A DNA stretch of 64,000 nucleotides. Source: Cantharellus purpuraceus (taxonomy: Eukaryota > Basidiomycota > Agaricomycetes > Cantharellales > Hydnaceae). A program made the position numbers and the translations under genes. Positions 15,658 through 60,429 of the stretch are shown in pieces. How positions within the stretch are numbered: position 1 is the stretch's first letter; each line of letters starts with the position of its first letter. Below the pieces are notes generated by a model that ran no database searches, had not been told where the DNA came from, and saw only the letters and a program-made list of their open reading frames with translations. The DNA lies in assembly GCA_025174535.1 (NCBI GenBank), contig JALBUN010000005.1, positions 976,172-1,040,171 of the forward strand. Direction: 5' to 3'.

Positions 15658-17457
15658 TGTATGGGAACCACCTTTTCCCTATCAAATTCCATTTATGCAG
15701 CACCAATGTGCTATTCTTTGCTTTTCCATTCCTAAATATCAACATATATTTGATGCTTGCACCTGGAATGGACTTATTTAAATATTCTCCAATTTTTCAT
15801 ATTTTTTTGGGAATATTCCATGCAGAACTTGGCCCAGAATCATTTATTTCTGCTGTGCTACAGTTGTGGACCCATAGGCGCCCACAAACCTTCACACAGC
15901 CGGCTCTCCCCCTTTGGACCAGGCATTCAGCCTGAATTCAAGCTCAGATGTCTCTGATCAATAAATATTCTCTAACTTCACAACCACAGCCTCTCAGGGC
16001 ACTATTTTCCATGCAGATCATCATCTGAGATGTGGCTATCCATGGCTGTCCAAACCAGTGCAGAAAACAGGATGGACACCCTTCTTTTTGCCTGATCAGT
16101 GCCTAGTTCAGGGATCAGATCAGCTGATGGGTGATCAGATCAGGTGATTGCCTTGGAATATTCTACCCCTTTCCATAACATTCTAGCTGTTTCCTTCTAT
16201 TATTAGATAGAACTTTCCAGAACCATTATTCAGCTCCTGATCAGTGTTAGCACAGTGATCAGAACCTGTGATTGGCTTGGAATATTCTACCCCTTTCTTC
16301 CACCTTCCACAACCTTCCAGTAGCTTCCATCTATTAATAGGTAGAATATTCCAGAAGCATTAGTCAGCCCCTGTAAATACAATATATAAGGAGGTCATTC
16401 TGCCTCTGAAATAGTAACATATTCTACCACTTCTACCCATCTTCTGCACACCAGTGCGACTAGAGTGACATACAGTGTCATCCTCTATCTCAGTAACTGT
16501 TGATTACCAGTTCAAGGATCTTTTACAGTTGTGTAACTGTATACGATTGCACTCAAAGTAGTGATATTCCTGCTTTGGGCGTGAGTGTAGTATCTGCCTC
16601 ACGTGACTACAAATCTACAGGGTGAGATTGTCTGTCAATAGTCCTGCCATTAGTGCTCTTGTTTAAGTAACTAGTGTGTACTGCCTTTGCAGAGCATTAG
16701 GACCTTGAACTTGTGTGAAGCAGTTGCTAGACTACTTCACACATTGCTGTTACCCGTGTTGATTATGGGAGAAAGGGGTTAGGAGAGAGGGGGGACAGGA
16801 GCACATAGGAGGCTCAGGAGGTTGAGGGGGAGGTAGGAAAGCAGGGGGAAATGGTTAGGAGAAAAGAGGAGAAGCCCCTGTAAGCTCCACACCCATCAGA
16901 TTATTCTCCTATATTTCTTTTATATTTTATTTCGTCATTTTTCCCCTATTGGCTCCACCCCCATTTCGTTTTTATCACAAGTTTCCTTCCCATGTTTCAA
17001 ATGATTCAGGACTTTTATCACATGTTCTAAAGACACATATCTTGTATAAAACATGCTTATCTAGATATGAAATGGACTAGAGAATTTACTCACTTGTTTT
17101 TGGGCGAAATTTTCAACAACCCGCTTCAGAGTGCCACTGGTTGGACAGTTGGATTCATCCACCTACTTCCTTTAGCCTCTAAGTGCATTCCCCTCTTTTT
17201 GGAATATCTGGACCCCTAAGCATCCGTGAACTCTAGACTCTGGAAGTCTTATTCATTTCTTGCTGCTAAGAAACATATTACTTTTCTGCGTATAGTCTGC
17301 ATTGACCAATACAAGGGATTGTAACCAAAGTACAAACGTTAAATTGTTTCTGGAGTTGTGCTGCAGCAGGGTTTGATATTCTTCTCAGCTGTTCATTCAT
17401 GGAATTGTGGTGATTTAGAGTTTGCCCTAACACCATAATTTTGCGGGTTCCAAAACA
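15658..17457 (-). mobile_element. X-family LTR, copy X7, reverse, split by a solo LTR
   Basis: It starts TGTATGGGAACC and ends GGTTCCAAAACA, i.e. X in reverse orientation, interrupted by R1 (16757-17118). Flanks do not match: ATCTA on the left inside Y1 (uninterrupted in Y2 at about 42632) and AGTGT on the right inside the G2 gag (uninterrupted in G1 at about 55590). The most economical reading is recombination between two X insertions at different sites. Confidence 0.7.
16757..17118 (-). mobile_element. Solo LTR R1 (362 bp) inside X7
   Basis: It runs from TGTTGATTATGG to TTTTCAACA and is flanked by the 5-bp duplication ACCCG (16752-16756 and 17119-17123). The intact X sequence at this point reads through ACCCGCTTCAGAG. 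It is related to R2 (45191-45904) in opposite orientation, with a ~350-bp internal deletion. Confidence 0.8.
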
Positions 17458-20309: not shown

Positions 20310-23300
20310 CTAAGGACTTTCTTGAACGTCTTGATCACTTTCTACAGTTTCCATCCGAGTTTGAAGATCGTGTAGGGAAATATCGGAGAGAAGTTGTAGC
20401 TGCGAAATGGCCATGTAAGGTCGCAAGGCGACTGCTAGTCGTGCCGCGGAAAGTGAGTCCAGTCCGTAAGCTGTGAATGGTACATTGCCGGAAAATTCAG
20501 ACGGATCAACGTCTAAAATTTCCACGACAGCATCAGTCATGCTTTTAGCATTTCCCTCGGTGTGTTCAGAAGACTCGTCGGTGGCAATACGTGTCAGATG
20601 CTCATATAACTCCGAAGAACCCAGGTGCTTATGCACAAGATTCCAGTCAAGGCCAGGGATGTATTGCCAGAAAGGACCATCTGCAAGTTTGCGGATTCCG
20701 TCTTCAAGGCAGTCACAAATTTCTGAGAAAGAAAGAAAACTTAGATGCTTGCAACAGCAGCTATACATCATTTCACACATACGTTGAGAAGACAGTCCCC
20801 AGGGCTGAAAAACAATGTGTCAGACGAAATGTCTTGTAGTCAAGATATAAACGAACCGTTAAATGACGCAACCTTCCTCCCTGCTCTCTTGTTTCCGATG
20901 CTAAGCCACCTCCATCCGTGACCGCTGGCAATACGAAGGTAAATGCATTGTTCCAGTTGCGTACCATGCCGTCCAAAGCTGTGTTCGCACTGAATTGGTC
21001 GCATTAATTGCTGGATATCGTATGTTTAGGGTGTTTCATACCTGCTATAGTTGGTTTGCCCTCCATTTCCAAACAGGCCAACCACGGACGAAAATGATAT
21101 GAAGAAATCCAACACAGCTAATCCTCCAGGAAGGCAACTTTCCAACACGCTGCACGCTCCAGTTTTGGATGCAAAAACCTTTCGGAAACTCTCTTCTTCT
21201 TGGGACGCGAAGGTTCGATCGGACAACACGGCTGTCAGCAGCATACACCCGCCTAACTGACGCGGAATGCTGCGCAATAAGCCTGTAGTCGCTTCCTTCG
21301 ATGTAGCATCCGAGGCCTCGAGTCGGATGATCAAGTCAGGGAGAGACTCCATATAAGCCATGATCCGCAGCGCCAAACGATCCTGTACTCGTGCAAGAGA
21401 TTCTCTACCCGACCTCGACGTCAATATGAGGTAACGTGCCCCTTTCTGCAAATTGTAATGGTCAACGAAAGAAATTGACGAATTTCACTGTTCGTACCTC
21501 ATACATCCAAAGAGCAACACGGATTCCTAGACCACCAAGACCCCCGACCAAAAGATATGCCTTGTTTGAATCGAAGAGCGATGCAGTACTTGTAACGAGT
21601 GTTCCTGCATCAGGAATGAGAACATCAGACAATCGGAGACCGATGTTATTACGAGGCCATCGATCGGTCAGTTCGAGAGCAAAATCGAATGCTTCTCCGA
21701 TCGAAGCAGGGTCCTCATTGAGAATGGACTCTAAACCATCATCAGTGTTATTCCACATGAAGGTGTGGCACTTCCGTGTGATTGCCTGTGCGATGCTTTG
21801 AATCTCGACGTCGTCGTCAGAACCAGAAAGAATCAAATCGACTTCTGTCGCTCGTTCTGCGAGTTCAGCAGGAGCACTGGACTCGAGGTCGATCACGTCA
21901 AAGCCCAGAAGTCGTAGAATCCACTTCAAAGAGGGGACGACCTCATAGCTTCCGTGAGAAAGTAATGCGCTTCCACCGTGGCGGCGGCGTGAAGACCTCA
22001 ACTTCGATACCCCACATGCCAAACATCCTATGAGGATACCGAGTGCTGCACCCGCAATCTCGGCCGCCACCTCCTCGGCTGTATCGGGTAGGAGAGCCAG
22101 CGATGCATGATGGGCCGTAATGACATTCGATATCCCCTCAGATGAGACGAGTCCGACGACAAGATTATTTGCACCAATGTAAGGGTTATCGACAGTGGAT
22201 GACACGCGACCAACAAATGTGCGTAGGTTCGCCTCACGAGGCGACATGGCTAGGACCTCTACTGTCACGAGATTAGCTTGGGGTGGAACCAGGGATGTTT
22301 GAACCAGTTCTGTTTCGGTTGAGGTCCAGGGTAATGAAGGCTGAAAGGGGTGCTTCCCGCTCGGAGCTGCAGATGGGACAATTCGGGATACCGAAATAGC
22401 GCCTTGCTCGTCAACAAGGAGTAGAGGCTCCAGACCAGGGATGCGTGAGAGACGATAAACAAACTCTGATTTCTCCTGCTCCTTCACGGGGCCGTTGAAT
22501 ATAACCAAGTGGATATCCCATAGTAGGTACTCCCGACCAAGTGACCTGAAGAACCCTATACCTGCATCACCATGAAACCCAGCCTCAGAATAGAACCAAA
22601 GGGATATTGTGCTCAGAGTATCAATGGCGGATAGCTTGTCCCGAATTTGTATTTCATTGCCCTGTCGGTATTGGATAACGAGCTTCTCCGTGTGACGCTC
22701 AGGGCTAGAAACATCTAGGAGTGGTTGAATTGACTTCTGGGCTTCCAAAGTGAAAAGAAGAGCATCTGCAGAGAATTCCACCGTGTAGACGTCTCCAAAT
22801 CCTGCCGTGTGAAGGCGTCGACGCCAATCTTGAGGTGAAATTGTGCAATGGGACCTATCGTCTGTGAACGCGAACCATTTTGCAAGGCTCCCGAAAATAA
22901 AATCAACCCAGATTGAGCCTGGTGCGCGTGATGTCCAGCTTTCGCCATTGAGATCCCCAATAAGTAAACAACCACCGGGCACAAGAAGACTATTGAGCCC
23001 ATCAAGTGACGGTGCCAGGTCCTCCATGATATGTAAGACGTTAAATGCAGTGATCACGTCAAAGGACGCCAGGTCGAGACCCTGTGGCGTTGGGGGCTTT
23101 GAGAGGTCGAAAGACATGTAACGACACTGCGCATAGGGCATCCGCGGTAGTAACTCCGTGGATAAGTCAGAGACAACAAATTGAATTATCGCGGATGGAA
23201 ACTCGTCCATGACCTTGGCAAGGTGTCGTGTCAATGCACCCGTCCCTGGTTTGTAACTGTTATCCTGTACTGTACTAATCCATGGCACGACATTACGTAC

Positions 23301-26300
23301 CTGCGCCTACTTCCAACACTTTGATAACACGCTTTCCACTTTTGATCATAGACGTTAGGATCTTCCGCAGACGACTGGCGCAAGCTTCGGCAGCCCAATC
23401 GTAATGCTGAAAATAGCGAGTCATAATGTCGTCCTTATATAGAATTTCCACGGCAGCCTGAGTGAACCCGTGAGTCGACGAGTTGTTAGTATGCTAACCC
23501 TACGAACTACCTTGGAGCTTTTCAAAATTTCACTGTGGATAGATGCTACCCGTGTCGTAACCTCTATAAGGTCTGGCCATTTCTCATGGATGTCGCGAAT
23601 AAACGATTCCTCAAATGGTTCTGTAGGGGTAGATGAAGCGGCCACCGTAGTCGAAAAGTTAAGATATCTTTGTCGGTCGATCTGGGAAAGGGTAAGTAGC
23701 TTTGAGAACTTAATATATGTATAAACTGACACTTTTCCCAGCGACTGGGTTATTCTTAAGCGTGTTGATGATTGCTTCGGTTGCGAGATTGTCTAAATAT
23801 GTATAAAGTTTACGCATGTCTTCGTGGGATGACCTGTCAATGGCATGAGCTTCAACAGTAATTTCCGGGGCTGCGAATGGCTGAAAAGTCAAGTCATGGC
23901 GCTGTGACACGGGCACGCGAGGAAAACTCTCATGTCGCTCAACTTCGACTTGGGTTAAAGTACAAAGTGGTGTTCCATCAATTGTCACGATATTAAAGTC
24001 GGCAACAAGGGTCGCTGGCGCGTAAATAATCAGCACGCAACGAGAGTGGAATTTTTCTATAGGCGTAATTACCGGGAGTCCAAGACCTGAAGACAATATG
24101 AACAAACACTTCTTCCGGCAGGCCTTGATCTACGAATGTCTGATGCAGAGTGAGTTTCCCCACTTTGGAGGGTAGATAGTATATGTTCCTGTCGTCATTG
24201 AGGGTGAAAGACTTGTGGACCATGAAATGTAGGCAACAGTCAAGAATCGCCGGATGGAAGACGTAGCCATCAACACTGTACAGTAATCAATTTAACGATC
24301 GTCAACTGAGGAGTTTTCTTACTCTAACGAATCATCATCACCACGAACTAAAACCAAGGCTTCATTTTCCCCTTGATAACCATCAATGACTCTCTGAAAT
24401 TCTGGGCCATATTCTGCAAATGTCTTCAAATCCTCATAGAAACCTACGTGGCATTGTAAATGACGTCCGTATCCACGCCATGTATGATAACATACCTGTT
24501 AGATCCATCCGCTGACATCTCTCAAGGATATCATCAAGGTTCAACGGTGTGTTCTCGGACTTGTAAGATGTCAAAGACAGAAAGCCTTCCGCGTGTACCC
24601 TGTCAAAATGGGCATCATGCTGCCAGTTGGAGCTCTTGAGTCTGGTAATTCGGGCGGGTGACATATTAAACGCACCTTGGTTGGTGACCTAGAGGTGGCA
24701 GCGGTCTTGACAGTCCAATGGATACCATCTAATTTCACTTCGACAGCAATAGGAGACTCTGCCGAGAGAGACATCATTGCGCGAAACTCAACGTCCCAGA
24801 GCTCCATCGCTCCAAACTCCAGAGCCATCTCAATAAATCCTGCCGCCGGCATGATGGGTTCTCCTTTGATCACATGTTGTGCCAGGACTGGATGGGTGTG
24901 AGAGTTGACACGCAAGCCAGAATAATTCAATGGGCCTTTCCTGTCTTGGAACTGGCGATAGAATGAGACCGATTCAGAGTGGTATGGCACTGGTTTGGTG
25001 TTGAATGGATATGCAGGGAGGGAGAAGTCGGTATCAAGGGCGGGGTGGTCGTTGAGTGCGGAGAAATCAACAAAGTTGTGGCCGAGCGTAGTAGCCTTAC
25101 CAAGGCAGTCCAAAAACGTCGTGGCCTCGACGGGATTATATTCATTTCGTTTGGGACGACGAAGGGGCGCAAGGACGGCAGTAGCTCCCAAGGCTGAAAG
25201 GTATGAAGAAAGCACTGGGTGGGGGGAGATTTCCATGAAGGTCGCAGTTGGATATTTCTTCAGCAGCGCAGTGATCGCCTCAGTGAATAAAACCGGCCAG
25301 CGTGTTCCGTCCCAGTAGTAGTCGCTGGTTATTGCAAAGTCTAACAATTCGCCTGTAAGAGTTGAATAAACGGGGAGCTGTGGATGGACTGCGCCGGGGT
25401 AATGTGACCACATTTTCTCCACTTCTCGCTTGAATTCTGTATGGCAGAGGTCCATCATGTTGGAATGAACCGGGACGCGTGTCTTCAGCTTTCTAGCCAT
25501 AATTCCCCTTGATTCCGCCAGTACAACAACCTTATCGATCGACGAAGCTTGGCCAGATAGAGTTACAGCCTCCTGAGAGTTATGGCATCCCACATCTATG
25601 GAACCGCGGAATTGCGGCTCCAAAGCTTCCGCAATTAGAGAATGTGCATCAGCGACACTGCATGAAAAAGCTGCCATGGTGCCGCCAGCCGATTCGACCG
25701 ACGCCATGGCCTTTCCTCGAGCGATGGACAGCTCGATGACCATGGCCTTGGAACCTGCTTTGGAGGCGTACAATACGGAGGTCTCTCCTGCGGAGTGGCC
25801 GACTACAATATCCGGGGAAATGCCTACGCTCTCTAGCAGATCGACCAGGGCACATTGCAGCATGGCAAGAGCGGGAAGCGTCACATCGATGGGCCAAATA
25901 TCTCCCAGAGGCGTATAGTTCCCCCCGAAAGATGTCTTTTGGAATAGACCAGTGGTGGCAATCAGAGACGTACCAGTCATCTGTGCATATACCTGATCCA
26001 TCTCCAGGATGCTTTCCCGGAACGTAGGATACATCTGGAAAAGCTCCCGCCCCATGTCGAGATGCTGTGGCCCTTGTCCCGCAAATACGAAGACGAGTGC
26101 TGGTTTGATGCGTGGACCAAGAACAGGTTCCGAGAACTTTGCCTTGCTGGCTTGACGAGGGGTATACACAGCATAGCTCCGCCATGTCATCTGCCTCGAG
26201 CGTCGGCCATAGATGGTCGAGACGAGCTGCGCCTGCCCAGGAGATGCGATGATTAAATCGGAAATTGTATCCGAAATGACTGTAGCACTGCGTGGAGACA

Positions 26301-28132
26301 GGGCGCCAGAGACCAAAAGGAGGGGTTTTTCTGCGCTTTGAGCTTCCATGTGGGGGCTTTGCCTGCGGGGAGGCGCAGGGGGTGCCTCGAGGACAACATG
26401 CCCGTTGGCACCGCCAATCCCAGTGCCACAGAGTGAGATCAATGGAAGACCAGTCCTTGAGTGACAGGGGAGCTGGAGAGGCTGCGTAGGAACACGGAGA
26501 CGATGCTTGCCCCAGTTGATCAGAGGATTCGGCGTGGTGAAATTCACGTTGGGAGGGATGACCCCTGTGTGGAAGATGTTCACCGCTTTGGTCAACGATA
26601 CCAAAAAAGCGGCGATCTCTGTATGCCTAAGTGGTGTTAAGTGTATCAGAATGACGCTTTCGCATCAGGCATCAGAGATATTCTGACCCTATGTTTCCTT
26701 TCACGCTCCCAATTATCAGTTCGTCTTCGCGGCAAAATGCCTCTCCAACCCAATTAGCTTCTGTGGGGTCTCCAGCAGCGGTACCTGCAATAGAATAAGG
26801 CTGGAAATGAACACAATTTTGAAATATTGATTACCTGTCGCATGCAGCTCTACGAAGTCTACTTCGGCAGGTTGTCTACTGGTTTGTGACCAGGCTCTGC
26901 GCATGGCATCGCGCTGAGCCTCCGCCACGGGAGCATTCACTGGAGCAGCAGATCCCGCAGAGTTGATACCTGTCCCCAATATCTAATGGAAAAAAAACGA
27001 CATGAGCGCTATAGTGTATACTTATTGGTTCTGAACTACGCACGGTACCATAAATTTGGTCCCTATCTTTCAAAGCCAAGTCAAGACGCTTCAGAACAAT
27101 AGCGACACCCGCTTCGCCCCGTGAGAACCTGCGTAAGGATAAGGAAGACGTATCAGAGTTTTTATCACCCCTAGTAGAGACAAGGTTTTGAAGAGATCCT
27201 ACCCATTAGCGGAGACGTCAAAAGGTTTGCATTTGCCATCTGGGGCCAAGATGCCACCTTGACTGTATTGCACCCAGTCGACGAAGCGATGGTTGAGCTG
27301 AATTCCCGCGACGACGGCTGCATCGCAGTCACCGCTACGAATGGATTGCACAGCCAAGTGTGTAGCGGTTAAACTGGAGCAACATGCAGTGTCAACAGTG
27401 ACAGACGGCCCGACGAGATCCAAGTGATAAGATACACGATTTGCTATCATAGCTGGTGAACCACCCGAAGAACCTCGGGCTTCAAACTCATCCTAATTGT
27501 CCCAAATAGTGTTGTTGAGTTAATACCTAATGGCACATAATGTCTTCACGTACAGGCTCCGACAGACTAAGGACGTCCAAAGCAATTCCAGACCTTACAA
27601 AAAACGTACATCAAACAATGTTTCCGAGGGGTGAAAAAGTGTACCCACGCAAAGCATCCTACGTTTTGCCCACGGTAGTCGATGCCTGAATCAAGCAGGG
27701 CCAGGAAAGACAACTCGATCAATTTCCGTGTCGAAATGGACATGGCTTTTGCATCCTTGCTAGTAATGCCAAGTTCTACGTGATCCAGCTGATCAGTCTG
27801 CTTGAGAAATGCGCCAAATTCCGTTGACACTTGGCCGATGTCTCTGCCTTTATATCTGAACGTGATAGAAAGTAAGCTGGAAGTGACGCGAAAGGACAGA
27901 CGAGAAAGGCATGGTCTACTAACGAATCGATGTTGAAACGGTCGATGGGGATCCTTTCATAGGCCTCGCCTCTGTTGAGCAAAAAATCGCCGAATTGTTT
28001 ATGGTCTAGGTTTTCTATGGCAGTCTCTCCACTGGGGAGCTCGGCAGCAATACCAACCTTCATGACATCAGTTATGACTAAAAGCATAATAAAAAAACTC
28101 ACAATAGCAATTGGAAGTTGCGGCAACGTCAT
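20310..28132 (-). CDS. Type I polyketide synthase, KS-AT-DH-CMeT-pseudoKR-KR-ACP, ~20 exons, roughly 2,250 aa
   Basis: The gene starts MTLPQLPIAI at 28132, splices to VGIAAELPSG, and can be followed in frame through about 19 introns of 45-70 bp to the stop at 20310. KS: DTACCSS (active Cys near 27383), HATGTAAGDPTE, GNIGHTE. AT: VGHSAGE near 25783-25800. DH: HVIKGEPIMPAAGF (near 24830-24876) and Asp in FHPAILD (near 24240). C-methyltransferase: KVLEVGAGTGALTRHLA and ITAFNVLH (about 23030-23330). A ~300-residue degenerate structural region follows, then the KR Rossmann motif LVGGLGGLG (about 21540) and SFSSVVG...GGQTNYS (about 21055-21100). ACP: AYGLDSLSAARL (about 20440-20480). No enoylreductase, thioesterase or reductase is visible, so release and enoyl reduction would need other enzymes. 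The product is unknown. No premature stop is needed in this model. Confidence 0.88.
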
Positions 28133-29775: not shown

Positions 29776-30377
29776 TGTTTTGGAACCTGCAAAATTATGG
29801 TGTTAGGGCAAACTCTAAATCACCACAATTCCATGAATGAACAGCTGAGAAGAATATCAAACCCTGCTGCAGCACAACTCCAGAAACAATTTAACGTTTG
29901 TACTTTGGTTACAATCCTTTGTATTGGTCAATGCAGACTATACGCAGAAAGGTAATACGTTTCTTAGCAGCAAGAAATGAATAAGACTTCCAGAGTCTAG
30001 AGTTCACGGATGCTTAGGGGTCCAGATATTCCAAAATGAGGGGAATGCACTTAGAGGCTAAAGGAAGTAGGTGGATGAATCCAACCGTCCAACCAGTGGC
30101 ACTCAGAAGCAGGTAACAGCGATGTGTGAAGTAGTCTAGCAACTGCTTCACACAAGTTCAAGATTCTAATGCTCTGCAAAGGCAGTACACACTAGTAACT
30201 TAAACAAGAGCACTAATGGCAGGACTATCGACAGACAATCTCACCCTGTAGATTCGTAGTCACGTGAGGCAGATACTACACTCACGCCCAAAGCAGGAAT
30301 TTCACTACTTCGAGTGCAATCAAGTACAGTTACACAACTGTAAAAGATCCTTGAACTGGTAATCAACAGTTACTGAG
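29776..30377 (+). mobile_element. X-family LTR, copy X3, left part (host of element T)
   Basis: It starts TGTTTTGGAACC and matches the other X copies to CAGTTACTGAG at 30377, where element T begins. The X sequence resumes with CTGAGATAGAGGATGACAC at 38249-38267, so T sits inside X3. After 38267 X3 is replaced by the reverse copy X4. Confidence 0.75.
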
Positions 30378-30940
30378 ACGCTTGTTCAGAAATACAACAA
30401 ATACGTATATACAACCTATTTTCCTCAAATTTTATACAATACACTTCAATTCAAACTTATTTTCATATTTCAACATGATTCTCAAATTTTACACAATATA
30501 CTAGATTAAAACATATTGTGATATTTTGGCATAATTCTCAAAAATAATTCTTTTTTCCCCATTTAGTGGTGGCAACTCTCTTGAAGGAACATCCAAATAT
30601 CATTGATTCTTTCTTATACAATACTTATAACATAATTTGAACTATCTTTAATCCCCACCTGGTATTTGTATATCTAAATACCCTATATAATACCAATTAT
30701 ATTCATATATACATTCCTATTATGTACATGTAAATGATTATGTTCATCTCAACCAAATGTCTTATCTTTAAAAGTTTATTAAAATATAGAATATATGTTT
30801 ATATTTATGAAAATTTCACACATCCGAAATCTTTTAAGATATCCAAATTGTAACTCCCTGGCTTTATGTATCATTGAAATTCTGATGTATATGAGATATA
30901 CATCAGAATATTGTATACTGACATGATTCCGAACAAGCGT
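30378..30940 (+). repeat. Element T left terminal direct repeat (563 bp)
   Basis: Same sequence as 37686-38248 in direct orientation, with inverted ends ACGCTTGTTC...GAACAAGCGT. It is strongly AT-rich, with no open frame. It is followed by CTAGG at 30941-30945. Confidence 0.9.
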
Positions 30941-31020
30941 CTAGGGAGGTCATTTTAAAAACAAAAATCATCACCTTATATCATCAACAAGCTTCTTTCT
31001 CCATAGATTTAGACATGCCA

Positions 31021-31518
31021 TTATGAATTCTTATCTTCATTGGTATGTCTGGACACTGTCCAACACAGCAAAGCCAATAGTATACCAATACTAGTTATGT
31101 AGATCATGTGCACTGTACGGCCAAGATATAGTTTCTGCCTATTTATATCTGGGCCTGGCTGTCTAACAAACGCCTGATTCACATGTGTGGTTATAATGTG
31201 TGCATATCCAGAGGTTGGATCAGAACCACTTACAAATCTGTTGGTTTTATTCAGAAAACCTGCAAATTCTGCTACAAAAATAGGATCACTTTCATTATAG
31301 CCTATTTTATCAGGTTGTAGACCAAGAAATACATATTTGATATGAGGATACTTTGAAAGCTGGAACACTTCACCTTCAGCATATGAACGGTCCAGATACT
31401 GCCCAAAGGGGTACCAGTCACACGTTGTACAATTAGCTAGCCGGTGTGGATTGCTGTGAAAAGGCTTTTGGTAAAACTGTTGATTGAGACGCTGTTTCAG
31501 TAATGGATCAGTCTCCAT
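31021..31518 (-). CDS. Element T protein: 165-aa putative tail-anchored membrane protein
   Basis: Intronless frame beginning METDPLLKQRLNQQF. It has a Cys pair (NCTTCDW) near residue 30 and a globular middle. A single hydrophobic segment near the C-terminus (residues ~137-155, IYITSIGILLALLCW) is followed by a short charged tail, the layout of a tail-anchored membrane protein. I do not recognise a family. Codon use is as AT-rich as the rest of T. Confidence 0.6.
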   Translation of the reverse strand: METDPLLKQRLNQQFYQKPFHSNPHRLANCTTCDWYPFGQYLDRSYAEGEVFQLSKYPHIKYVFLGLQPDKIGYNESDPIFVAEFAGFLNKTNRFVSGSDPTSGYAHIITTHVNQAFVRQPGPDINRQKLYLGRTVHMIYITSIGILLALLCWTVSRHTNEDKNS

Positions 31519-31700
31519 AGATACCTATAAGTATAAAACATACAAATATTCAATTTTATTCTGGGAAAAAAATTTACAGTTGAATGTAGCATAGGTATAC
31601 AATAATACTATTACTATTGTCTTTCCAATACTCTTTAATACATTCTGTAGATTTAAAGCTTGATGTTGCTTCCCAAGTTTTCTCTGCATAACATTTCCAT

Positions 31701-33050
31701 TTAACTAAATATTCTATGTACTTTCCTTTTTCTTTGCCTTATTATTTGTTCTACTTCATTTTCAGTCTCATAATGCATCTCCACATCATACTCACATCTT
31801 TCTAATAGTCGTTGTTGAGATAGAGTCATCTTGTCAACATCTTCTGCTCTTTCCAGTAATGATCTGGGTGGCTCAATATCTGGGTCCTCTTCCTCAGGGT
31901 AATCAAAATATTGTTCACACCATTTTTCATGATAAGGGGATGGTTTGATCTTACGTAGTTCTACAAATTTCTTAATATTCCATAATAGACATGCTACCTT
32001 TAATTCCAGATTAAAGACAGCAGGATTTGTAGTTCTAATAGATCTCTTATTATCAAATTTTTCAAACAATATTGCAAACCCTCCAAAGAATGCTTCTACT
32101 GTTGAACGAAAGGCACCAAACTTCTTATTAAAAATCTTTTCTTCAGGTTTAAGTTCAACATTTTTTGGCTTCTGAAAAGGATAAAAGAAGTTCTTAGGCT
32201 TTAATATACTTGCCTTTACTACTTCTGGAATAGCAGATGGATAAGCTCCATCAAAGCCTATCTGATCATTCTTATCTATTTTATTCCATACAGCCATCTC
32301 TACAAACATTTTTGCATCAGGATTTAGTTTACATGCCAATGAAGGTGAGGTGAATAGAACCATTTGATTAATGTCAATGCATACTTGAGTACGAAATCCT
32401 GCCTTTTTAAATTTATGTGAGTACCCCTCTTCAGATGTCGATCCAATCAAAATTCCTCTTGTATCATGACCATCAAGAAGTAATGTCACTGATTCCATTT
32501 TTGGAGGATTCTGTATAAGAGCTGATAATATCCTTATTATTATATTTGAGAACATTGTACGCAGTGAATCAGTAACTTGTTTATCTAGATCAAAGTTAAG
32601 ATGATGCAGACGACCATAAAATTCCTTATGAACATCATAAAAGCTACTTGATGGCATGAAATTTCCTATTTCTTCATAAGTAGGACCTTTGAGTAGATGA
32701 TATAGTACTAACAAGCCTTTTTCTATCTCTCTATAAGGTGTAGAATGTTCTTCAACTGAAAACAATACCACAAGAAAGAAAAATACTGGTATTGGTCCAA
32801 GCTTGTTATATACTACTTTTTTTACATCATCCATATCATTCATATCTTTTAGTTTTGTTCTATGATATTTTTTGTGTTCTAAGACAGGCCACTTTGTGTA
32901 TAGAAAATTCCAATGATTGTCCATCAACTTATTATATGCTCTGTCCCTTTGATCATTCCACATTTTAAGTTGCTGAAGCTCTTTTTCTTCTTTCTCTTTT
33001 TGCTCTTTCTCTTTTTGCTCCTTTGTGCGTTTTTGCTGGTCTGAGGGCAT
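31701..33050 (-). CDS. Element T transposase, DDE_Tnp_4-like (PIF/Harbinger-IS5 type), 449 aa
   Basis: A single intact frame. The Lys/Glu-rich N-terminus (residues 5-30) is followed by a helix-turn-helix-like part (LLKGPTYEEIGNFMPSSSFYD, ~119-139). The catalytic core has first Asp in LLLDGHDT (D193), a FRTQVCIDINQMVLFTSPS strand block, second Asp in GFDGAYPS (D267) and Glu in FGAFRSTVEAFFGGF (E319), preceded by EEKIFNKK. This D-D-E spacing and the DGAY / FN..FG.FRS.VE blocks are those of the DDE_Tnp_4 superfamily of PIF/Harbinger and IS5-like transposases. No stop or frameshift. A separate Myb-like partner, usual in Harbinger, is not evident. The tail is basic (RQRKRKVHR). Confidence 0.8.
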   Translation of the reverse strand: MPSDQQKRTKEQKEKEQKEKEEKELQQLKMWNDQRDRAYNKLMDNHWNFLYTKWPVLEHKKYHRTKLKDMNDMDDVKKVVYNKLGPIPVFFFLVVLFSVEEHSTPYREIEKGLLVLYHLLKGPTYEEIGNFMPSSSFYDVHKEFYGRLHHLNFDLDKQVTDSLRTMFSNIIIRILSALIQNPPKMESVTLLLDGHDTRGILIGSTSEEGYSHKFKKAGFRTQVCIDINQMVLFTSPSLACKLNPDAKMFVEMAVWNKIDKNDQIGFDGAYPSAIPEVVKASILKPKNFFYPFQKPKNVELKPEEKIFNKKFGAFRSTVEAFFGGFAILFEKFDNKRSIRTTNPAVFNLELKVACLLWNIKKFVELRKIKPSPYHEKWCEQYFDYPEEEDPDIEPPRSLLERAEDVDKMTLSQQRLLERCEYDVEMHYETENEVEQIIRQRKRKVHRIFS

Positions 33051-33146
33051 TTTGACTAAGATACTCTTATATTACAGTAAAACAAAAATATGTTCATTTT
33101 TTTGATAATTGAATTTTAAATTAAATAACATTTATTCTATGAAGCT
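33051..33146. promoter_or_regulatory. Divergent promoter between transposase and 216-aa gene
   Basis: Only 96 bp, very AT-rich, separate the transposase start codon (minus) and the next start codon (plus), so both genes must be expressed from this spacer. No specific motif was identified. Confidence 0.4.
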
Positions 33147-33797
33147 ATGTTGTCTGTCTCTAAGCAAGTTGTTCGTAAAATATCTACTGTCTTTGTTAAA
33201 AAAGAACCAGAGGATGATGAAAATCCTTTGTATATAGACTCTGACACCATCTACATAAAATTCAGATTAAGAAATCCCCCAAAGGACTTCTTTCCAGCTG
33301 GATTGGTTTCTCAGGAAAGAGATAAAACACCAGAAGCACTGTACAATAAGATGATTGAAAAGGGCAATGAAATAAGTAATTCAACCTGGATTCAACAAAA
33401 TCATTGTATGTCAAGTCTGCAAACCATGCAACAGGATAATCTGCCTAGTTGTAATATTTCTATTGCTAGAGAAACTGGCAAGAAGTGTGATATTTCTATT
33501 GCTGGGGAAACTTGTAAGAACTGTGATGTGTATAACAATTTGGTTACATCAATGGTTGTTGCATTGAAACAACAGCAGAGAGTTTTCAAGAAAAGTAAAA
33601 TCACAATCTATGGTATGATCATAACTAAGGATGGTAGGTTAAAATTATATGAAACCACCAATAACAATCAGGGTGTTTCAATTGTTGTATATCCTTCCTC
33701 TGGATACAGCATAGAAGCTCAGTTTGAAGAGTGTTCTAATGCTATTGACATTATATTCCAAAGTATAAGAAATCAGATGTTCAAAGAATCCTCATAA
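33147..33797 (+). CDS. Element T protein: 216 aa, unknown
   Basis: Intact intronless frame starting MLSVSKQVVRKISTVFVKKEPEDDENPLY. The middle holds an internal repeat (NISIARETGKKCDISIAGETCKNCDVY written as two ISIA-ETxKxCD units), possibly metal-binding Cys residues, and the C-terminus looks alpha/beta (KSKITIYGMIITKDGRLKLYE). No family recognised. It is transcribed away from the transposase. Confidence 0.55.
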   Translation: MLSVSKQVVRKISTVFVKKEPEDDENPLYIDSDTIYIKFRLRNPPKDFFPAGLVSQERDKTPEALYNKMIEKGNEISNSTWIQQNHCMSSLQTMQQDNLPSCNISIARETGKKCDISIAGETCKNCDVYNNLVTSMVVALKQQQRVFKKSKITIYGMIITKDGRLKLYETTNNNQGVSIVVYPSSGYSIEAQFEECSNAIDIIFQSIRNQMFKESS

Positions 33798-33815
33798 GGA
33801 GTTGATTTAAAAGTC

Positions 33816-34040
33816 CTAGTTTCTACACTCACAACATTTTTCATCTATTTTCACTTGGATAATTTCAAGATTTGAACTTTTGTTCACACAACAATAAGTA
33901 CCATTAGTATCATGATGAGTATTTTTTGAATGTTCAGAGCTCTTAGGACATTGAATATCCTTACAATCTGTAACTACAGATGTAGTAGTTATATGATTGC
34001 ACTTCCAAGTAATTTGAATTTTTTCACTATCACCACACAT
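33816..34040 (-). CDS. Element T protein: 74-aa Cys-rich, unknown
   Basis: Frame MCGDSEKIQITWKCNH...CCECRN with nine Cys, including CKDIQC, CC and CCEC. It is convergent with the 216-aa gene, 18 bp apart. It could be a zinc- or disulfide-bonded mini-protein. No signal peptide. Small size keeps confidence low, but the tight packing with neighbours supports coding. Confidence 0.4.
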   Translation of the reverse strand: MCGDSEKIQITWKCNHITTTSVVTDCKDIQCPKSSEHSKNTHHDTNGTYCCVNKSSNLEIIQVKIDEKCCECRN

Positions 34041-34091
34041 GCCTTCATTTGAGTGAATAAAAATATTGCATATTCACTTATCTGATTTATC

Positions 34092-34271
34092 TTATACTTG
34101 TTGTAGTGCACGTAGTGGTAGCTGAATCTCATTGTCATCATAAGTAACAGTTATTAGCAAAGTGTCATCTGACAAAGTGCCAGTTACTAATGTAACAATA
34201 CCTGTCACTGTCATTTGTGTTCTTGCATTGATAAATGATACCTTATCACCAATCTCAGGTATATTCAACAT
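34092..34271 (-). CDS. Element T protein: 59-aa beta-rich, unknown
   Basis: Short frame starting MLNIPEIGDKVSFINARTQ and ending LQLPLRALQQV-like (IQLPLRALQQV). The predicted alternating strands and the GDKV.F start resemble a small SH3/KOW-like barrel, but this is only a resemblance. It lies between two other minus-strand mini-genes with 40-50 bp spacers. Confidence 0.35.
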   Translation of the reverse strand: MLNIPEIGDKVSFINARTQMTVTGIVTLVTGTLSDDTLLITVTYDDNEIQLPLRALQQV

Positions 34272-34309
34272 GGTGTCTCTGGTTATTATATATTAATTTT
34301 CAAAACTCA

Positions 34310-34555
34310 TTATTTCTCATCTAATTTCCTATCAAGTATATCTACAAACTTCTTAAATGCTTCAAAACACTGTAGAACATTCTTTCTACTATTAATATGT
34401 TTCATACCTGTTACTGTTACAGGGAAACAACACCTTACATTTGTTTTCACTTCTGAAAACAACCCTTCTGTGATAGCATGATCAAGCTCTCTTGTAACAG
34501 TTACTAGGTAAAACTGGGGGACTTTTCTCGATGTTTGAATGCAAGGTATTGTCAT
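34310..34555 (-). CDS. Element T protein: 81 aa, unknown
   Basis: Frame MTIPCIQTSRKVPQF...ILDRKLDEK, mixed alpha/beta with a helical, charged C-terminus (ECFKKFVDILDRKLDEK-like). No motif recognised. It is 21 bp downstream of the next minus-strand gene. Confidence 0.4.
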   Translation of the reverse strand: MTIPCIQTSRKVPQFYLVTVTRELDHAITEGLFSEVKTNVRCCFPVTVTGMKHINSRKNVLQCFEAFKKFVDILDRKLDEK

Positions 34556-34576
34556 TTCCTCTAAAGCACTTTCCCC

Positions 34577-34801
34577 TTATTCTTCCTTATCTAAGTATGT
34601 AAAAAATTTTCTTGAAGACTCCTTTAAACATTTCACATCATCTTTTTTGTAATCAAAACTGAGGATCTCATCATCAGTATCTAAAGTAATATCTCTAAAA
34701 TCTGTCTCAAAAAACTGTTTAGTCCATTGTGTGTCAACCATTATACCATAATCCCAAAGATCATGAGAACTCCAATCATTGCACTTCTTATCTTTACCCA
34801 T
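34577..34801 (-). CDS. Element T protein: 74-aa acidic, unknown
   Basis: Frame MGKDKKCNDWSSHDLWDYG..., strongly acidic (DITLDTDDEILSFDYKKDD) and likely helical at the C-terminus. First of the run of four minus-strand mini-genes (34801 down to 33816). No family recognised. Confidence 0.4.
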   Translation of the reverse strand: MGKDKKCNDWSSHDLWDYGIMVDTQWTKQFFETDFRDITLDTDDEILSFDYKKDDVKCLKESSRKFFTYLDKEE

Positions 34802-35299
34802 GATGTCAATAAAGAAGGATATATAAAATTTATTTACTAGATATGTGCATAGTTCTGAAGAGCAGAATGTCCATATTTTTATCTAATATTTATAAATTGA
34901 ATTATATATATTTTCTAAAGTTGTTAATAGCCAGATGCATGCACTCGTTCTGAATACTACAACAAAGTCCCATACAGAATTCCCTGTCCTTTCATCTATC
35001 ATTCTTCTACCAGTTCCTTGTTTCCTATCTTGCCAGTCTTTCATTCCAAATTCTTTGCTGCATAGCTAAATAGGTGTACCAGCCGATTGGATATTATCAT
35101 ATCATGGTAATGACGTCGGATGGAAGGTCACCTTGTCAGGAGCAGTTTGATCACATTATCAAAGGACAGCCTTTTGGCTGTGAGGGTTGATAATGATGCA
35201 CTTACTGAGCAGACAGTAGGTGAGACTTTGCAGCGGCATGGTGTACCAGATAATTGAATCGTTGTCCTTGAGCAGCCCGATGATGTCACTCGGTGTCGG

Positions 35300-35865
35300 T
35301 TCGCTTATGGAATAGATCCTATAAGCCTGCGTGCAATGGTCCTAGCAAGCAGACGGTGTGTAACGCAGTTGTTCAGCACTCCAAAGATCAATCATGGCGA
35401 GGGGTACGTAACAGGGAAGTGGGATAGTGCTCTGTGGTTGGATGAGGATGGGAGCAAAAGGTCGGTCCCGATGGCTGATCGTGCTCTGTGACTGGATGAC
35501 AATGCGGAGCCCGGTTGGGAGGTACGCGAAAGCTGGTTTCAGGAGAAGCAACCTCTCGGTGGCGGAGGGAAATCTGATCGTTGAACCAAGGTGTTTTACC
35601 TCAGTGTAGAGATGATGGATTGTGATGTAGAGTGTAGACTTAGAGCTTGGACTTTGACTTTAGAGCGCCGGCTGAAAACTTGTTTTTTGATTCCAAAGGC
35701 GAAAAACTAGCGCCTTTTTATATACAAATTCCCAGGGCACAACGACACAATATGAGGAGCAAATGATGCAAGAAATGCTGATCAAGCCAGCTGACAAAGC
35801 GTGTGAAGTTGAGCTACTAAAGGGGAAATCATGGAGAAATGAAACGACAGATAGGGACATCATTA
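35300..35865 (-). repeat. Promoter-bearing repeat inside element T, shared with 41310-41878
   Basis: It matches 41310-41878 inverted, from the GAATAGATCCTATAAGCCTG end to the GGGGAAATCATGGAGAAATGAA end, with scattered differences. Both copies hold TATATACAAA / TTTGTATATAAAAGG (about 35711-35720 and 41435-41446), a TATA-box candidate reading into the repeat. It is more GC-rich than the rest of T and probably a later insertion; I could not find its target duplication. Confidence 0.5.
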
Positions 35866-35929
35866 GACTGCTCATGGACAGCCATTCACTCCAAGGTGAC
35901 CTTGTATCCTACGTCTTTGGAGGCTTACA

Positions 35930-37150
35930 TTACTGGGTTCTCCCTCTACATCTTTTTCTTGAACTAGGAATTTGAGATTGATCAGAGTCTGAATCAGATT
36001 GATCAGAGTCTGAATCAGATTGATCAGAGTCTGAATCAGATTGATCAGAGTCTGAATCAGATTGATCAGAGTCTGAATCAGATTGATCAGAGTCTGAATC
36101 AGATTGATCAGAGTCTGAATCAGATTGATCAGAGTCTGAATCAGATCGTTCCTTAGACCTTTTTTCTTGATGCCTTGAACTAGGAGTTTGAGATCGTTCC
36201 TTAGACCTTTTTTCTTGATGCCTTGAACCTTGAGTCATTCCTTGCTTCCATGTTTGAAAATTAATCCTATTACCATCTACGTCATATGATGACATTTCAT
36301 TCTTCCTAGTATATATTGTAGATAGTTTTCTAGGCTCACCATTTATGAATAATTCCATTCTATTTAGTCTACAAGACTGATCTGAGTCTATAAGTATATA
36401 ATCTACACCTCTTTTCACTATCTTAAATGTCACCTTTCTGGTACCATTTTCCTGTAACCTTGTTACCTCCTGTTCTTGTTTTCCAGCCCAGTGATTCATA
36501 TCAAATTTCCAGTCAACAATCTCAGATATTATTGCTTTATATTTATCACCCTGTTTCTGAAGTTTATTAATGTCTGTTCCAAGTTCCACTACAGTATCAT
36601 CTGTTTCTACAATCCACTCATGCACTTCAGATTTCCATTCCACAATGTCTGATATTGTTGCAATACATCTATTAACCTGTTTCTGAAGTTTATGAATATC
36701 TGTTCTATGGTCCAATATAAGATTCTCTGCATTATGTGTATTGACCTGTTGATGAATATCTGTTCCATGGTCTGATATTGTGGCAACACACCTATTAACC
36801 TGTCTCTGAAGTTTATGAATATCTGTTCCAAATCCTGATACAATATCATTCATTTCACTCATCCATTCATCTAAATTCTCTTTCCTGTCTGTCAAAGTAG
36901 TTATAATTGTATTTTTTTCCTCAACCTGTTTCTTAAGCACCTGAATTTCCTGACTCTGGGAATTAACCTGTTGTTCAAGTATAGTGATCTGCCTATCCTT
37001 TTCACTCATCCAAGACTTGACATTTATAAGATCAGATATTAATTCATCTTTTACTTCCATTTGACTTGCCATAGCTTTTATCAGTGCATCATTGTCACTT
37101 ATCCAGCCTTTGATTGCTTTTATATCTTCAAAGATTTGTGACATTTTCAA
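35930..37150 (-). CDS. Element T protein: 406-aa coiled-coil protein with C-terminal SDSDQSD repeats
   Basis: Intact intronless frame. Residues ~1-250 are heptad-like with repeated blocks (TDIHKLQ(R/K)QVNRC.ATISD and VEWK..VHEWI), indicating long coiled coils. Residues ~255-310 look globular (VTFKIVKRGVDYILIDSDQS). Then come two basic RHQEKRSKERS copies and about eight 7-residue SDSDQSD repeats coded by a 21-bp DNA tandem repeat (about 35977-36145), ending RKRCRGRTQ. No homologous family recognised. The architecture suggests a structural or DNA-bridging role. Confidence 0.6.
   Translation of the reverse strand: MKMSQIFEDIKAIKGWISDNDALIKAMASQMEVKDELISDLINVKSWMSEKDRQITILEQQVNSQSQEIQVLKKQVEEKNTIITTLTDRKENLDEWMSEMNDIVSGFGTDIHKLQRQVNRCVATISDHGTDIHQQVNTHNAENLILDHRTDIHKLQKQVNRCIATISDIVEWKSEVHEWIVETDDTVVELGTDINKLQKQGDKYKAIISEIVDWKFDMNHWAGKQEQEVTRLQENGTRKVTFKIVKRGVDYILIDSDQSCRLNRMELFINGEPRKLSTIYTRKNEMSSYDVDGNRINFQTWKQGMTQGSRHQEKRSKERSQTPSSRHQEKRSKERSDSDSDQSDSDSDQSDSDSDQSDSDSDQSDSDSDQSDSDSDQSDSDSDQSDSDSDQSQIPSSRKRCRGRTQ
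35977..36145. repeat. 21-bp in-frame tandem repeat
   Basis: About eight nearly perfect copies of a 21-bp unit (ATTGATCAGAGTCTGAATCAG) in the 406-aa gene, encoding SDSDQSD on the minus strand. The near identity suggests recent expansion or ongoing slippage. Confidence 0.85.
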
Positions 37151-37291
37151 ATACCTCTCTGCTTATAAAACAGAAATGAAAAAACATAATAATCATTTTT
37201 TTCTGAACATTTGATATTTTGTATAGGCAGTAGATATATACATCTTGCTTTCTTAATAAAATGATTATTATGTTTTTATGTTATAAGCATT

Positions 37292-37618
37292 ATGAAGATG
37301 CTCTCTTTTATGCTTCAATGCAAGATAGAGTTTGATAGAAGAGTTAATGATTGGTATATATCTCGGATAGGATCCCTCCATGATTTGTTTCTGAGGTAAG
37401 TTCCTTTATAAATATCAAGGTTCCAATCACTGACTTTATACAGATGTACTGATGGCACACTTCTGGAACAGAAATTAACAGAGTTATATACTAGTATGGA
37501 GCAGGATCATTATTTTCCACCACTTTGGATGGAAAATCTGATGGTATTGCACCCTAAAGTACGAGGGATAGTCATACAGTCTCATGTTAGAACAAGATTA
37601 TCTACCACTATGCCCTAA
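37292..37618 (+). CDS. Element T protein: spliced 92-aa protein, unknown
   Basis: Exons 37292-37395 and 37444-37618 are joined by a 48-bp intron with GTAAGT donor and TACAG acceptor. Splicing keeps frame (MKMLSFMLQCKIEFD...HDLFLR then CTDGTLLEQKLTELY...RLSTTMP). It lies on the plus strand against the right terminal repeat. It is the only intron-containing gene I see in T and shows that T genes can carry spliceosomal introns. No family recognised. Confidence 0.5.
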
Positions 37619-37685
37619 CTAAGTTACTTTGTTTTAAAAATAGCTTCACTGCATTAAAGGTGTTTGTTTCCAAGACTTTCCTAAG

Positions 37686-38248
37686 ACGCTTGTTCAGAAA
37701 TACAACAAATACGTATATACAACCTATTTTCCTCAAATTTTATACAATACACTTCAATTCAAACTTATTTTCATATTTCAACATGATTCTCAAATTTTAC
37801 ACAATATACTAGATTAAAACATATTGTGATATTTTGGCATAATTCTCAAAAATAATTCTTTTTTCCCCAGTTAGTGGTGGCAACTCTCTTGAAGGAACAT
37901 CCAAATATCATTGATTCTTTCTTATACAATACTTATAACATAATTTGAACTATCTTTAATCCCCACCTGGTATTTGTATATCTAAATACCCTATATAATA
38001 CCAATTATATTCATATATACATTCCTATTATGTACATGTAAATGATTATGTTCATCTCAACCAAATGTCTTATCTTTAAAAGTTTATTAAAATATAGAAT
38101 ATATGTTTATATTTATGAAAATTTCACACATCCGAAATCTTTTAAGATATCCAAATTGTAACTCCCTGGCTTTATGTATCATTGAAATTCTGATGTATAT
38201 GAGATATACATCAGAATATTGTATACTGACATGATTCCGAACAAGCGT
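37686..38248 (+). repeat. Element T right terminal direct repeat (563 bp)
   Basis: Direct copy of 30378-30940 with the same inverted ends; preceded by CTAAG (37681-37685) and followed by the target duplication CTGAG. Confidence 0.9.
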
Positions 38249-38267
38249 CTGAGATAGAGGATGACAC

Positions 38268-40470
38268 TGTATGGGAACCACCTTTTCCCTATCAAATTCC
38301 ATTTATGCAGCACCAATGTGCTATTCTTTGCTTTTCCATTCCTAAATATCAGCATATATTTGATGCTTGTACCTGGAATGGACTTATTCAAATATTCTCT
38401 ATTTTTCCATATTTTTTCGGGAATATTCCATGCAGAACTCGGCTCAGAATCATTTATTTCTGCTGTGCTACAGTTGTGGACCCATAGGCACCCACAAACC
38501 TTTGCACAGCCGCCTCTCCCCTTTTGGACCAGGCATTCAGCCTGAATTCAAGCTCAGATGTCTCTGATCAATAAATATTCTCTAACTTCACAACCACAGC
38601 CTCTCAGGGCACTATTTTCCATGCAGATCATCACCTGACATGTGGCTATCCATGGCTGTCCAAACCAGTGCAGAAAACAGGGTGGACACCCTTCTTTTTG
38701 CCTGATCAGTGCCTAGCTCAGGGATCAGATCAGCTGATGGGTGATCAAATCAGGTGATTGCCTTGGAATATTCTACCCCTTTCCATAACATTCTAGCTGT
38801 TTCCTTCTATTATTAGATAGAACTTTCCAGAACCATTATTCAGCTCCTGATCAGTGTTAGTACTGTGATCAGATCCTGTGATTGGCTTGGAATATTCTAC
38901 CCCTTTCTTCCACCTTCCACAACCTTCCAGTAGTTTCCATCTATTAATAGGTAGAATATTCCAGAAGCATTAGTCAGCCCCTGTAAATACAATATATAAG
39001 GAGGCCATTCTGCCTCTGAAAGAAGAACATATCATCATATTCTACCCATCTTCTGCACACCAGTGTGACTAGAGTGACATACAGTGTCATCCTCTATCTC
39101 AGTAACTGTTGATTACCAGTTCAAGGATCTTTTACAGTTGTGTAACTGTACTTGATTGCACTCGAAGTAGCGATATTCCTGCTTTGGGCGTGAGTGTAGT
39201 ATCTGCCTCACGTGACTACGAATCTACAGGGTGAGATTGTCTGTCGATAGTCCTGCCATTAGTGCTCTTGTTTAAGTTACTAGTGTGTACTGCCTTTGCA
39301 GAGCATTAGAATCTTGAACTTGTGTGAAGCAGTTGCTAGACTACTTCACACATCGCTGTTACCTGCTTCAGAGTGTCACTGGTTGGACGGTTGGATTCAT
39401 CTGTTATTTGAATAATGTAAATAATTGCTTTGCTGGAGTGTAGTGACGAGCAGAAGTCGAATAGAAAGTGGAGCAGTGGTGGGAACACGATGTATGCGTA
39501 GTCGAATTGAAGATATACTTGAGTAGTATCTTCCTACGAAGTTTGATGGGATTTAATGTGATCTTCGTCTAGATATCGACAATTTAAGCAGGGATCAGGA
39601 GCAGATGACTCGAACGAGAGTAAATGCTTAATAAAAAAGTAGCCAGTGATTGTATGGCTTCGTAATTCGAGATTAGAGTTGGATATGCAATAGTCTAATA
39701 GAATATGCAAAAGCTAATAGAAATACGCGTTCGTTCTGGAGATATTCCAGATACGAATAGATTCAGACACACAGACAGAAACAGGTGAGAGGAAATTCTC
39801 TGTCAATTCAAGTGCATTACAGATGTGATTTATATATGATACTAAGTCCTATGAATGAGTGAAGTCATTCGTAAATGTCCTGAGTCAATGATGGGATGGA
39901 TGATGAGATGATGATGGGGGGAAGTGTCCATGATGATGAAATGATGAAAATAAAAGCGAAAATAATGTCCAGGAAGTTCTGGAACTCACAGGGGCTTCTC
40001 CTGTTCCCTATTCCATTCCTGTAACCGTCCTCCTTTACCCCCATTTTCCCTCAAAACCTCCTGAGCCTCCTATATGCTCCTGTTCCTCCCCTGTCCCCTG
40101 TAATCCCCCTCTCCTCTCCCTTCTCCCCAGAAGTCCGGCAGCTAGATGTCCGGCAGCTGGAACAACATCATCCACCTACTTCCTTTAGCCTCTAAGTGCA
40201 TTCCCCTCTTTTTGGAATATCTGGACCCCTAAGCATCCATGAACTCTAGACTCTGGAAGTCGTATTCATTTCTTGCTGCTAAGAAATGTATTACTTTTCT
40301 GCATATAGTCTGCATTGACCAATACAAAGGATTGTAACCAAAGTACAAATGTTAAATTGTTTCTGGAGTTGTGCTGCAGCAGGGTTTGATATTCTTCTCA
40401 GCTGTTCATTCACGGAATTGTGGTGATTTAGAGTTTGCCCTAACACCATAATTTTGCAGGTTCCAAAACA
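38268..40470 (-). mobile_element. X-family LTR, copy X4, reverse, split by solo LTR S2
   Basis: It starts TGTATGGGAACC and ends GGTTCCAAAACA, interrupted by S2. Left flank GACAC (end of X3) and right flank GACAA match at four of five bases. If X4 had inserted in X3, X3 should resume on the right, but it does not, so the right side has been rearranged. Confidence 0.7.
39402..40167. mobile_element. Solo LTR S2 (766 bp) inside X4
   Basis: TGTTATTTGAATAATG to CTGGAACAACA, flanked by perfect TCATC duplications (39397-39401, 40168-40172). The uninterrupted X sequence reads ATTCATCCACC. Nearly identical to S1, so recently active. Confidence 0.88.
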
Positions 40471-60424: not shown

Positions 60425-60429
60425 TGTAA

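Follow-up and report, generated by a model that had tools for sequence, protein, structure and literature searches.

The window analysed here is a 64,000-nucleotide stretch of Cantharellus purpuraceus DNA (contig JALBUN010000005.1, our contig C5, positions 976172-1040171). At positions 30377-38249 it contains T, an element of 7,873 bp in which two long terminal direct repeats (LTDRs) enclose a core (INT) in the layout LTDR-INT-LTDR. T is a DNA transposon of PHIS (PIF/Harbinger) type and composite-like build, with an architecture as in the animal element KolobokP, and it belongs to a real, recently spread family whose INT copies are nearly alike. Its parts are the following.

30374-30376, no strand assigned: left copy of the target duplication, TGA, placed on the basis of empty sites in the window
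30377-30941, plus strand: left LTDR, 565 bp, GACGCTTGTTC...GAACAAGCGTC
30942-37684, plus strand: INT, the core, 6,743 bp, first bases TAG and last bases TAA
37685-38249, plus strand: right LTDR, 565 bp, with one difference from the left LTDR
38250-38252, no strand assigned: right copy of the target duplication, TGA, placed on the same basis

The sequence-only reading of this DNA had described two nearly identical 563-bp direct repeats enclosing 6.7 kb of AT-rich coding DNA, with the element bounded at 30373 and 38253. The pair is real and has a sole mismatch (T at 30562, G at 37870), and the enclosed DNA is as described, with a GC content of 34% for the element against 47% for the remainder of the window; the repeat length and the bounds are corrected to those given above. 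Each repeat separately carries the inverted ends GACGCTTGTTC...GAACAAGCGTC, which match perfectly over 11 bp. The element lies within a repeated sequence, which the window also contains uninterrupted at three places (16469-16499 and 39078-39108 on the minus strand, 49536-49566 on the plus strand), with none expected in shuffles; the empty site is visible, as had been said. Judged against this empty site, TGA is duplicated if T is taken as GACGC...GCGTC, and the previously proposed 5-bp duplication CTGAG requires that the outermost G and C be assigned to the target.

We searched the genome (40.15 Mb, 50 contigs) for copies. A 22-base LTDR marker matched 507 times with up to two mismatches, and its reversed control did not match at all; among the first 100 of these places, on contigs C1 to C21, 55 were solo LTDRs and 45 lay in full elements. 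From a full-repeat search, 40 of 687 candidates were scored. Left junctions (LTDR to INT) were matched 64 times, with a single match for the reversed pattern; six with two or three mismatches were excluded, and three of the 58 used had no right junction. Seven of the 61 right junctions (control 0) were unpaired. One of the 55 resulting pairs (C24:166165) was dropped as its right junction was shared, leaving 54 paired full elements with an INT of 5.98-7.27 kb and, in one case, 12.4 kb. Both repeats and the outer flanks could be read in 42 of the 54, the remaining 12 being incomplete or having altered ends. Seven of these 12 were inspected by eye: two have a matching 3-bp duplication (C1_2875662 and C20_589168), two show no match (C9_1225896 and C9_1497775), and in three an end is degraded or missing. 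Two elements (C24:124350-125300 and C38:5650-6600) carry a deletion that removed the inner end of the left LTDR and the start of INT, and their left end is more conventional. T-family junctions lie within about 1 kb of contig ends at the starts of C5, C15 and C33, at the end of C9 and on C44, so arrays may be under-assembled and the counts are lower bounds. An older relative of T on C35 and C23 has 84-85% DNA identity over 3.2-3.5 kb and repeats of 72-74% identity; the C35 relative is a mosaic, because another part of INT there is 95-97% identical.

The target site duplication (TSD) of the T family is 3 bp, not 5 bp. It was found in 35 of the 42 fully read elements, whereas shuffled-flank controls averaged 7.9 and never exceeded 16; a match over 5 bp was seen in 16 elements. 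CTGAG appears to be duplicated because the ends of the element read GACGC...GCGTC and the target favors C before and G after the TSD. The sequences of the 35 duplications were TTA (10), TAA (9), TAT (5), ATA (3), TGA, TTT and TTG (2 each), and AAA and TCG (1 each), so that TNA accounts for 21 and other trinucleotides for 14; C precedes the TSD in 22 cases and G follows it in 25. C|TNA|G is therefore a preference and not a strict rule. The 3-bp duplication also extends to solo LTDRs: it flanks 13 of 13 solos that were complete within the 30 top-scoring query matches, and in a further 10 it was present in six (four by script, two by eye), with three failing and one unreadable. A second target recurs. 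GGTTCCTATGGTGATG is uninterrupted at three places in the window (19463, 47385, and 56823), and three other elements (on C36, the C38 dimer, and C1:2372843) are inserted exactly at this site with TAT duplications. Because three elements sit exactly there, GGTTCCTATGGTGATG is a target hotspot as well as a set of empty sites, unless one insertion is shared by some of the three via duplication.

The classification of T follows its target and its transposase, which is encoded in INT by the following open reading frame (ORF).

31701-33071, minus strand: DDE_Tnp_4 transposase, 449 amino acids from the ATG, open, with a chromodomain interrupted by a frame shift near 31715 (by eye)

The earlier description of an intact DDE_Tnp_4-like transposase holds: the ORF is open, and in an alignment of 40 sequences, consisting of the window protein and 39 of its 58 homologues, the triad D193, D267 and E319 is invariant. 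DDE_Tnp_4 was matched by 38 of the 40, and a chromodomain was also recognized in 29. The window protein itself scored 21.5 bits against Pfam DDE_Tnp_4 (PF13359), just below the cut-off of 24.8; of nine matching genome copies, three passed it, and a fourth did so with its neighbors. The predicted fold is that of a DDE/RNase H transposase. Within its own genome the full 449 residues are found without a stop at 12 places, including the window, and many more copies have stops or are fragmentary. Few of the 58 homologous proteins carry an organism name, and those that do come from fungi (Apophysomyces, Rhizomucor, Mortierella, and Actinomortierella). In all 30 genome copies examined the transposase frame ends where the chromodomain begins, and the chromodomain resumes in the +1 frame (by eye) beyond an A-rich stretch (AAAAAGG, window 31700-31730); the change of frame may be an old mutation or a programmed shift. 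The DDE_Tnp_4-type transposase with its DDE triad and the 3-bp TNA duplication in C|TNA|G fit PHIS elements of the NuwaII kind. According to the accessible parts of the PHIS survey, the NuwaII group has a C|TNA|G target with a 3-bp TNA duplication, 3 and 5 bp being indistinguishable there (PMC4482050), and TNA is called the classic Harbinger target in what is available of an Ectocarpus survey (PMC12477816). The contrast with PIF/Harbinger that had been drawn from a 5-bp duplication is thereby lost. Kolobok transposases are described in the available text on KolobokP as having a C/DxxH motif between the second D and the E (PMC9587614); by eye, the window transposase lacks an H in the stretch from D267 to E319.

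The two LTDRs of one element are far more alike than those of different elements. Over the 42 elements, repeats of the same element differ at a mean of 2.9 positions (median 1) and are identical in 14, whereas the means between elements are 12.6 (5'-5'), 12.2 (3'-3'), and 12.4 (5'-3'), and 10,000 random pairings gave a mean of 12.2 and a minimum of 9.5. The repeats are thus regenerated or homogenized, as the sequence-only reading had supposed. For 28 of the 42 5' repeats the own partner is the nearest or tied nearest repeat, and for 20 it is strictly the nearest. The difference was maintained in the 33 TSD-bearing elements with distinct flanks (2.2 within and 12.5 between). Since LTDRs are alike within and unlike between elements, the 5' and 3' repeats do not fall into clearly distinct lineages of the kind expected for an inherited composite. 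In all seven elements without a TSD, the LTDRs differ at alleles common to other elements, as expected of ectopic recombinants.

A first explanation for such pairs, taken from the models for KolobokP, is that a circle of one LTDR and INT recombines homologously into a solo LTDR, or that unequal crossing-over takes place. The excess of solos over full-element repeats among the marker places fits this scheme, and so do the arrays: tandem arrays with shared LTDRs occur on C44, C45, and C38, and two apparent dimers with matching outer 3-bp duplications (C45, TTA; C38, TAT; intervening DNA read in part) are compatible with multimerization in place. A single crossover, however, keeps all the differences between the partners, of which about 12 are expected, and the observed median is 1; we consider this explanation improbable. 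The LTDR variant of the window element also occurs as solos, identical at C49:616792 and with one difference at C1:225998, and one solo is nested inside another (C1:3697496-3698624).

To compare the histories of core and repeats, we used 23 elements and about 3.4 kb of INT. Mean divergence was 0.74% for INT, 2.1% for LTDRs, and 0.35% for the two LTDRs of one element. INT distances were uncorrelated with those of the 5' repeat (LTDR5; Mantel r 0.03, p 0.34) and of the 3' repeat (LTDR3; r 0.08, p 0.27), in contrast to the close agreement of LTDR5 with LTDR3 (r 0.92, p 0.0002). The histories of INT and LTDR are separate. LTDR variants are mosaics of common alleles, with all four gametes in 195 of 253 column pairs. 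Across the 42 elements, 14 private alleles were seen in both LTDRs of their element, six of these in a single element, and 33 elements have none. In 22 elements (C38_12686 left out), 12 private mutations were confined to one LTDR (0.00048 per bp) and 53 lay in INT (0.00072 per bp); at these rates, homogenization after insertion has spared most fresh differences.

These data bear on a second explanation, in which INT homes into a resident solo LTDR and duplicates that repeat on both sides. Homing would account for the presence of one and the same young INT inside matched pairs that belong to many LTDR variants, and the outer duplications would be inherited from the solo. Long-resident solos should, however, give several site-specific mutations on both sides, and the observed mean of 0.33 per element, with none in 33 of the 42, is hard to reconcile with this; the constant TAG...TAA inner ends would also be hard to recreate every time. 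We regard homing as very improbable.

The main rival is cut-and-paste movement of the composite via its two outermost ends, the LTDRs being matched by frequent conversion in cis or sister exchange and diversified by rarer conversion from the hundreds of solos. Whole LTDR-INT-LTDR units with 3-bp duplications (35 of 42) speak for it; T does insert as a unit, in line with the sequence-only reading. Weak positional inheritance of 5'/3' differences agrees with it, as do several haplotype differences clustered in one LTDR of three TSD-bearing elements (C14_694576, C23_3501468, and C15_465524), and the mosaics are also expected from ectopic conversion. In its plain form it predicts linkage of INT and LTDR together with separate 5' and 3' lineages, which are not seen beyond the weak positional signal. 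With conversion added, the rates become demanding: over 34 polymorphic LTDR columns the 35 TSD-bearing elements show 31 mismatches compared with 350 on random pairing, about a tenth. Conversion in cis must then be faster, by roughly that factor, than conversion from hundreds of other copies, and such fast conversion must still leave one-LTDR private differences at two thirds of the INT rate and no both-LTDR private allele in 33 of the 42 elements. On balance we think this rival somewhat unlikely; it is the most serious of those considered.

Taken together, the LTDR statistics disfavor both simple cut-and-paste and simple recombination of a circle into a solo, and suggest replicative, cointegrate-like transposition. 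The mechanism that we tentatively favor, at a probability a little short of even, is copy-in integration of a circle with one LTDR and INT. Recombination between the LTDRs of an element would release this circle, and additional recombination events would shuffle its single LTDR with the many solo LTDRs. Both ends of the circle's single LTDR would then be nicked by the transposase and joined to a C|TNA|G target, and replication across the LTDR would yield LTDR-INT-LTDR, in which the repeats are identical and the outer 3-bp duplication is new, as in IS6/IS26 copy-in. Later recombination between the paired LTDRs may leave a solo behind and free the circle again. In the accessible parts of an IS6 review, the donor's old duplication lies on the inner sides of a cointegrate and the target's new one outside, and IS903, of the IS5 family, is said to be able to use alternative pathways (PMC7986276). 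Replicative transposition from a one-LTDR circle explains why the LTDRs are identical, why the inner ends stay constant, and why the duplication outside is new. The matching outer duplications of the two apparent dimers (TTA on C45, TAT on C38) also speak for this mechanism. The LTDR may once have inserted into a circular or tandem INT, with the TAG and TAA inner ends as the remnant of that target; the INT ends join as CC-TAR-GG, as expected from such an event, and this junction fits the C|TNA|G target of the family.

Several observations weigh against copy-in from a circle. Neither a circle nor a donor-target pair was observed, and the inner duplication is an imperfect match, TAG versus TAA. 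Of the 35 TSD-bearing elements, 11 have LTDRs that differ at alleles common to other elements. Differences between the 5' and 3' repeat recur in the same order, with a homopolymer indel in nine elements and two linked columns in five, and a label-flip test gave evidence of weak positional inheritance (p 0.0005; 0.007 without the homopolymer column), so that some moves probably transfer both LTDRs unchanged. Among the 22 elements, 11 private alleles lie in both LTDRs (0.00089 per bp; a single element contributes six), about as many as the 12 in one LTDR; cut-and-paste with conversion in cis would allow this, and on this test conversion between the two LTDRs may have taken place. The INT comparison covers 23 elements over roughly the left half of INT, and one of these elements, C38:12686, has a 4.5% divergent INT.

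A broader proposition is that T is a eukaryotic DDE transposon that spreads mainly by copy-in of a one-repeat circle, remaking its LTDR pair at each insertion and shuffling it with the solo pool, independently of KolobokP. We hold this to be possible and slightly more doubtful than the mechanism alone. If true, it would be a DNA-only counterpart of the regeneration of long terminal repeats (LTRs), evolved independently of KolobokP. The LTDR statistics make it testable how paired repeats are kept.

The remaining coding capacity of INT consists of the following ORFs.

31021-31524, minus strand: ORF of 165-167 amino acids with a hydrophobic C-terminal stretch (by eye); a search for relatives found none
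33129-33797, plus strand: ORF divergent from the transposase, 216-222 amino acids; a search for relatives found none, and there is no usable model
33816-34073, minus strand: Cys/His-rich ORF of 85 codons
34310-34882, minus strand: ORF with a single in-frame stop in the window copy
35930-37162, minus strand: coiled-coil-like ORF of 410 codons
37298-37618, plus strand: 90-amino acid ORF across an intron-like stretch (48 nucleotides, GT...AG, 37396-37443)

A cargo of about nine genes had been reported. INT does hold a cargo of ORFs, but the count is not firm; there are about seven or eight, one with an in-frame stop, and in a scan of eight ORFs only the transposase was recognizable by Pfam. Neither a reverse transcriptase, in line with the sequence-only reading, nor a His-Me finger nuclease was matched by Pfam among these eight, several of which have no relatives or models, and no Myb/SANT domain was matched among them at an E value of 1, two being without detectable relatives. 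A 21-bp tandem repeat of eight units (35975-36142) lies inside the 410-codon ORF and encodes SDSDQ repeats. The 48-nucleotide intron-like stretch is kept at 10 of 10 loci with that INT end, the window copy included.

LTR retrotransposons have TG...CA ends, a 4-6-bp duplication, and a reverse transcriptase or integrase. T departs from this in its GA...TC ends, its 3-bp TSD, and the lack of a Pfam match to reverse transcriptase or integrase in the eight ORFs. A derivative copied through RNA by the reverse transcriptase of another element would also show near-identical repeat pairs, solos, and mosaics, all of which are LTR-like. Against it stand the same ends and duplication, the presence of ORFs on both strands, the retention of the intron-like stretch, the first INT bases, in which no tRNA-type primer site was seen by eye, and the element's own DDE transposase; this explanation is largely refuted, and we give it next to no weight. 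Elsewhere in the window, the long ORFs at 21462-26664 on the minus strand have translations that look, by eye, like polyketide synthases, and a large inverted duplication lies near both window ends (2044-6037 and 58738-62904, 93-98% identical in pieces).

Among known systems, the NuwaII group of PHIS elements, as far as it is described in the available text (PMC4482050), has in common with T a DDE_Tnp_4-type transposase, a 3-bp TNA duplication in C|TNA|G, and a short terminal inverted repeat (TIR) starting with G. T differs in its long, LTR-like direct repeat pairs, in the chromodomain of many transposase relatives, and in that no Myb/SANT domain was recognized. Term searches of one literature library found no PIF/Harbinger element with long terminal direct repeats and no replicative regeneration of paired repeats in a Harbinger-type element, eukaryotic transposons at large not being searched; a survey of fungal TET/JBP transposons reports Harbinger-type families, with no mention of terminal direct repeats in its accessible parts (PMC12730594).

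The pseudo-compound transposons and translocatable units of IS6/IS26, in the available portion of their review (PMC7986276), resemble T in having directly repeated TIR-bearing units around a passenger, tandem arrays, an old duplication inside and a new one outside, and one-repeat circles, which for T are proposed and not seen. They are bacterial, with the transposase inside the repeat and 8-bp duplications, whereas T has its transposase in the passenger and a 3-bp duplication.

The closest match in architecture is KolobokP, described by Kojima and Bao in 2022 as unlike any other DNA transposon; its authors proposed unequal crossing-over or a circle and mentioned IS26 translocatable units (PMC9587614). 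The sequence-only reading had found no named family to match the cargo of T. The LTDR architecture had already been described in KolobokP, with a different transposase. As far as the accessible text of that paper goes, distances of repeats within and between elements are not reported for KolobokP, and the comparison is as follows (PMC9587614). Both systems have the layout LTDR-INT-LTDR, LTDRs with their own short TIRs, solos, multimers with outer duplications, RR...YY termini, and a transposase encoded in INT. LTDRs are about 450 or 660 bp long in KolobokP and 565 bp in T, and short matching INT ends are TATA/TATA in one KolobokP family and TAG/TAA in T. KolobokP is an animal element with a Kolobok transposase and a His-Me nuclease, and its solo duplications are mostly 3-5 bp with no strong target preference; T has a DDE_Tnp_4 transposase, no recognized nuclease of that type, a longer INT with more ORFs, and a 3-bp duplication in C|TNA|G. 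For a composite-like plan of this sort to recur in a second transposase group would mean that it has evolved at least twice and is workable.

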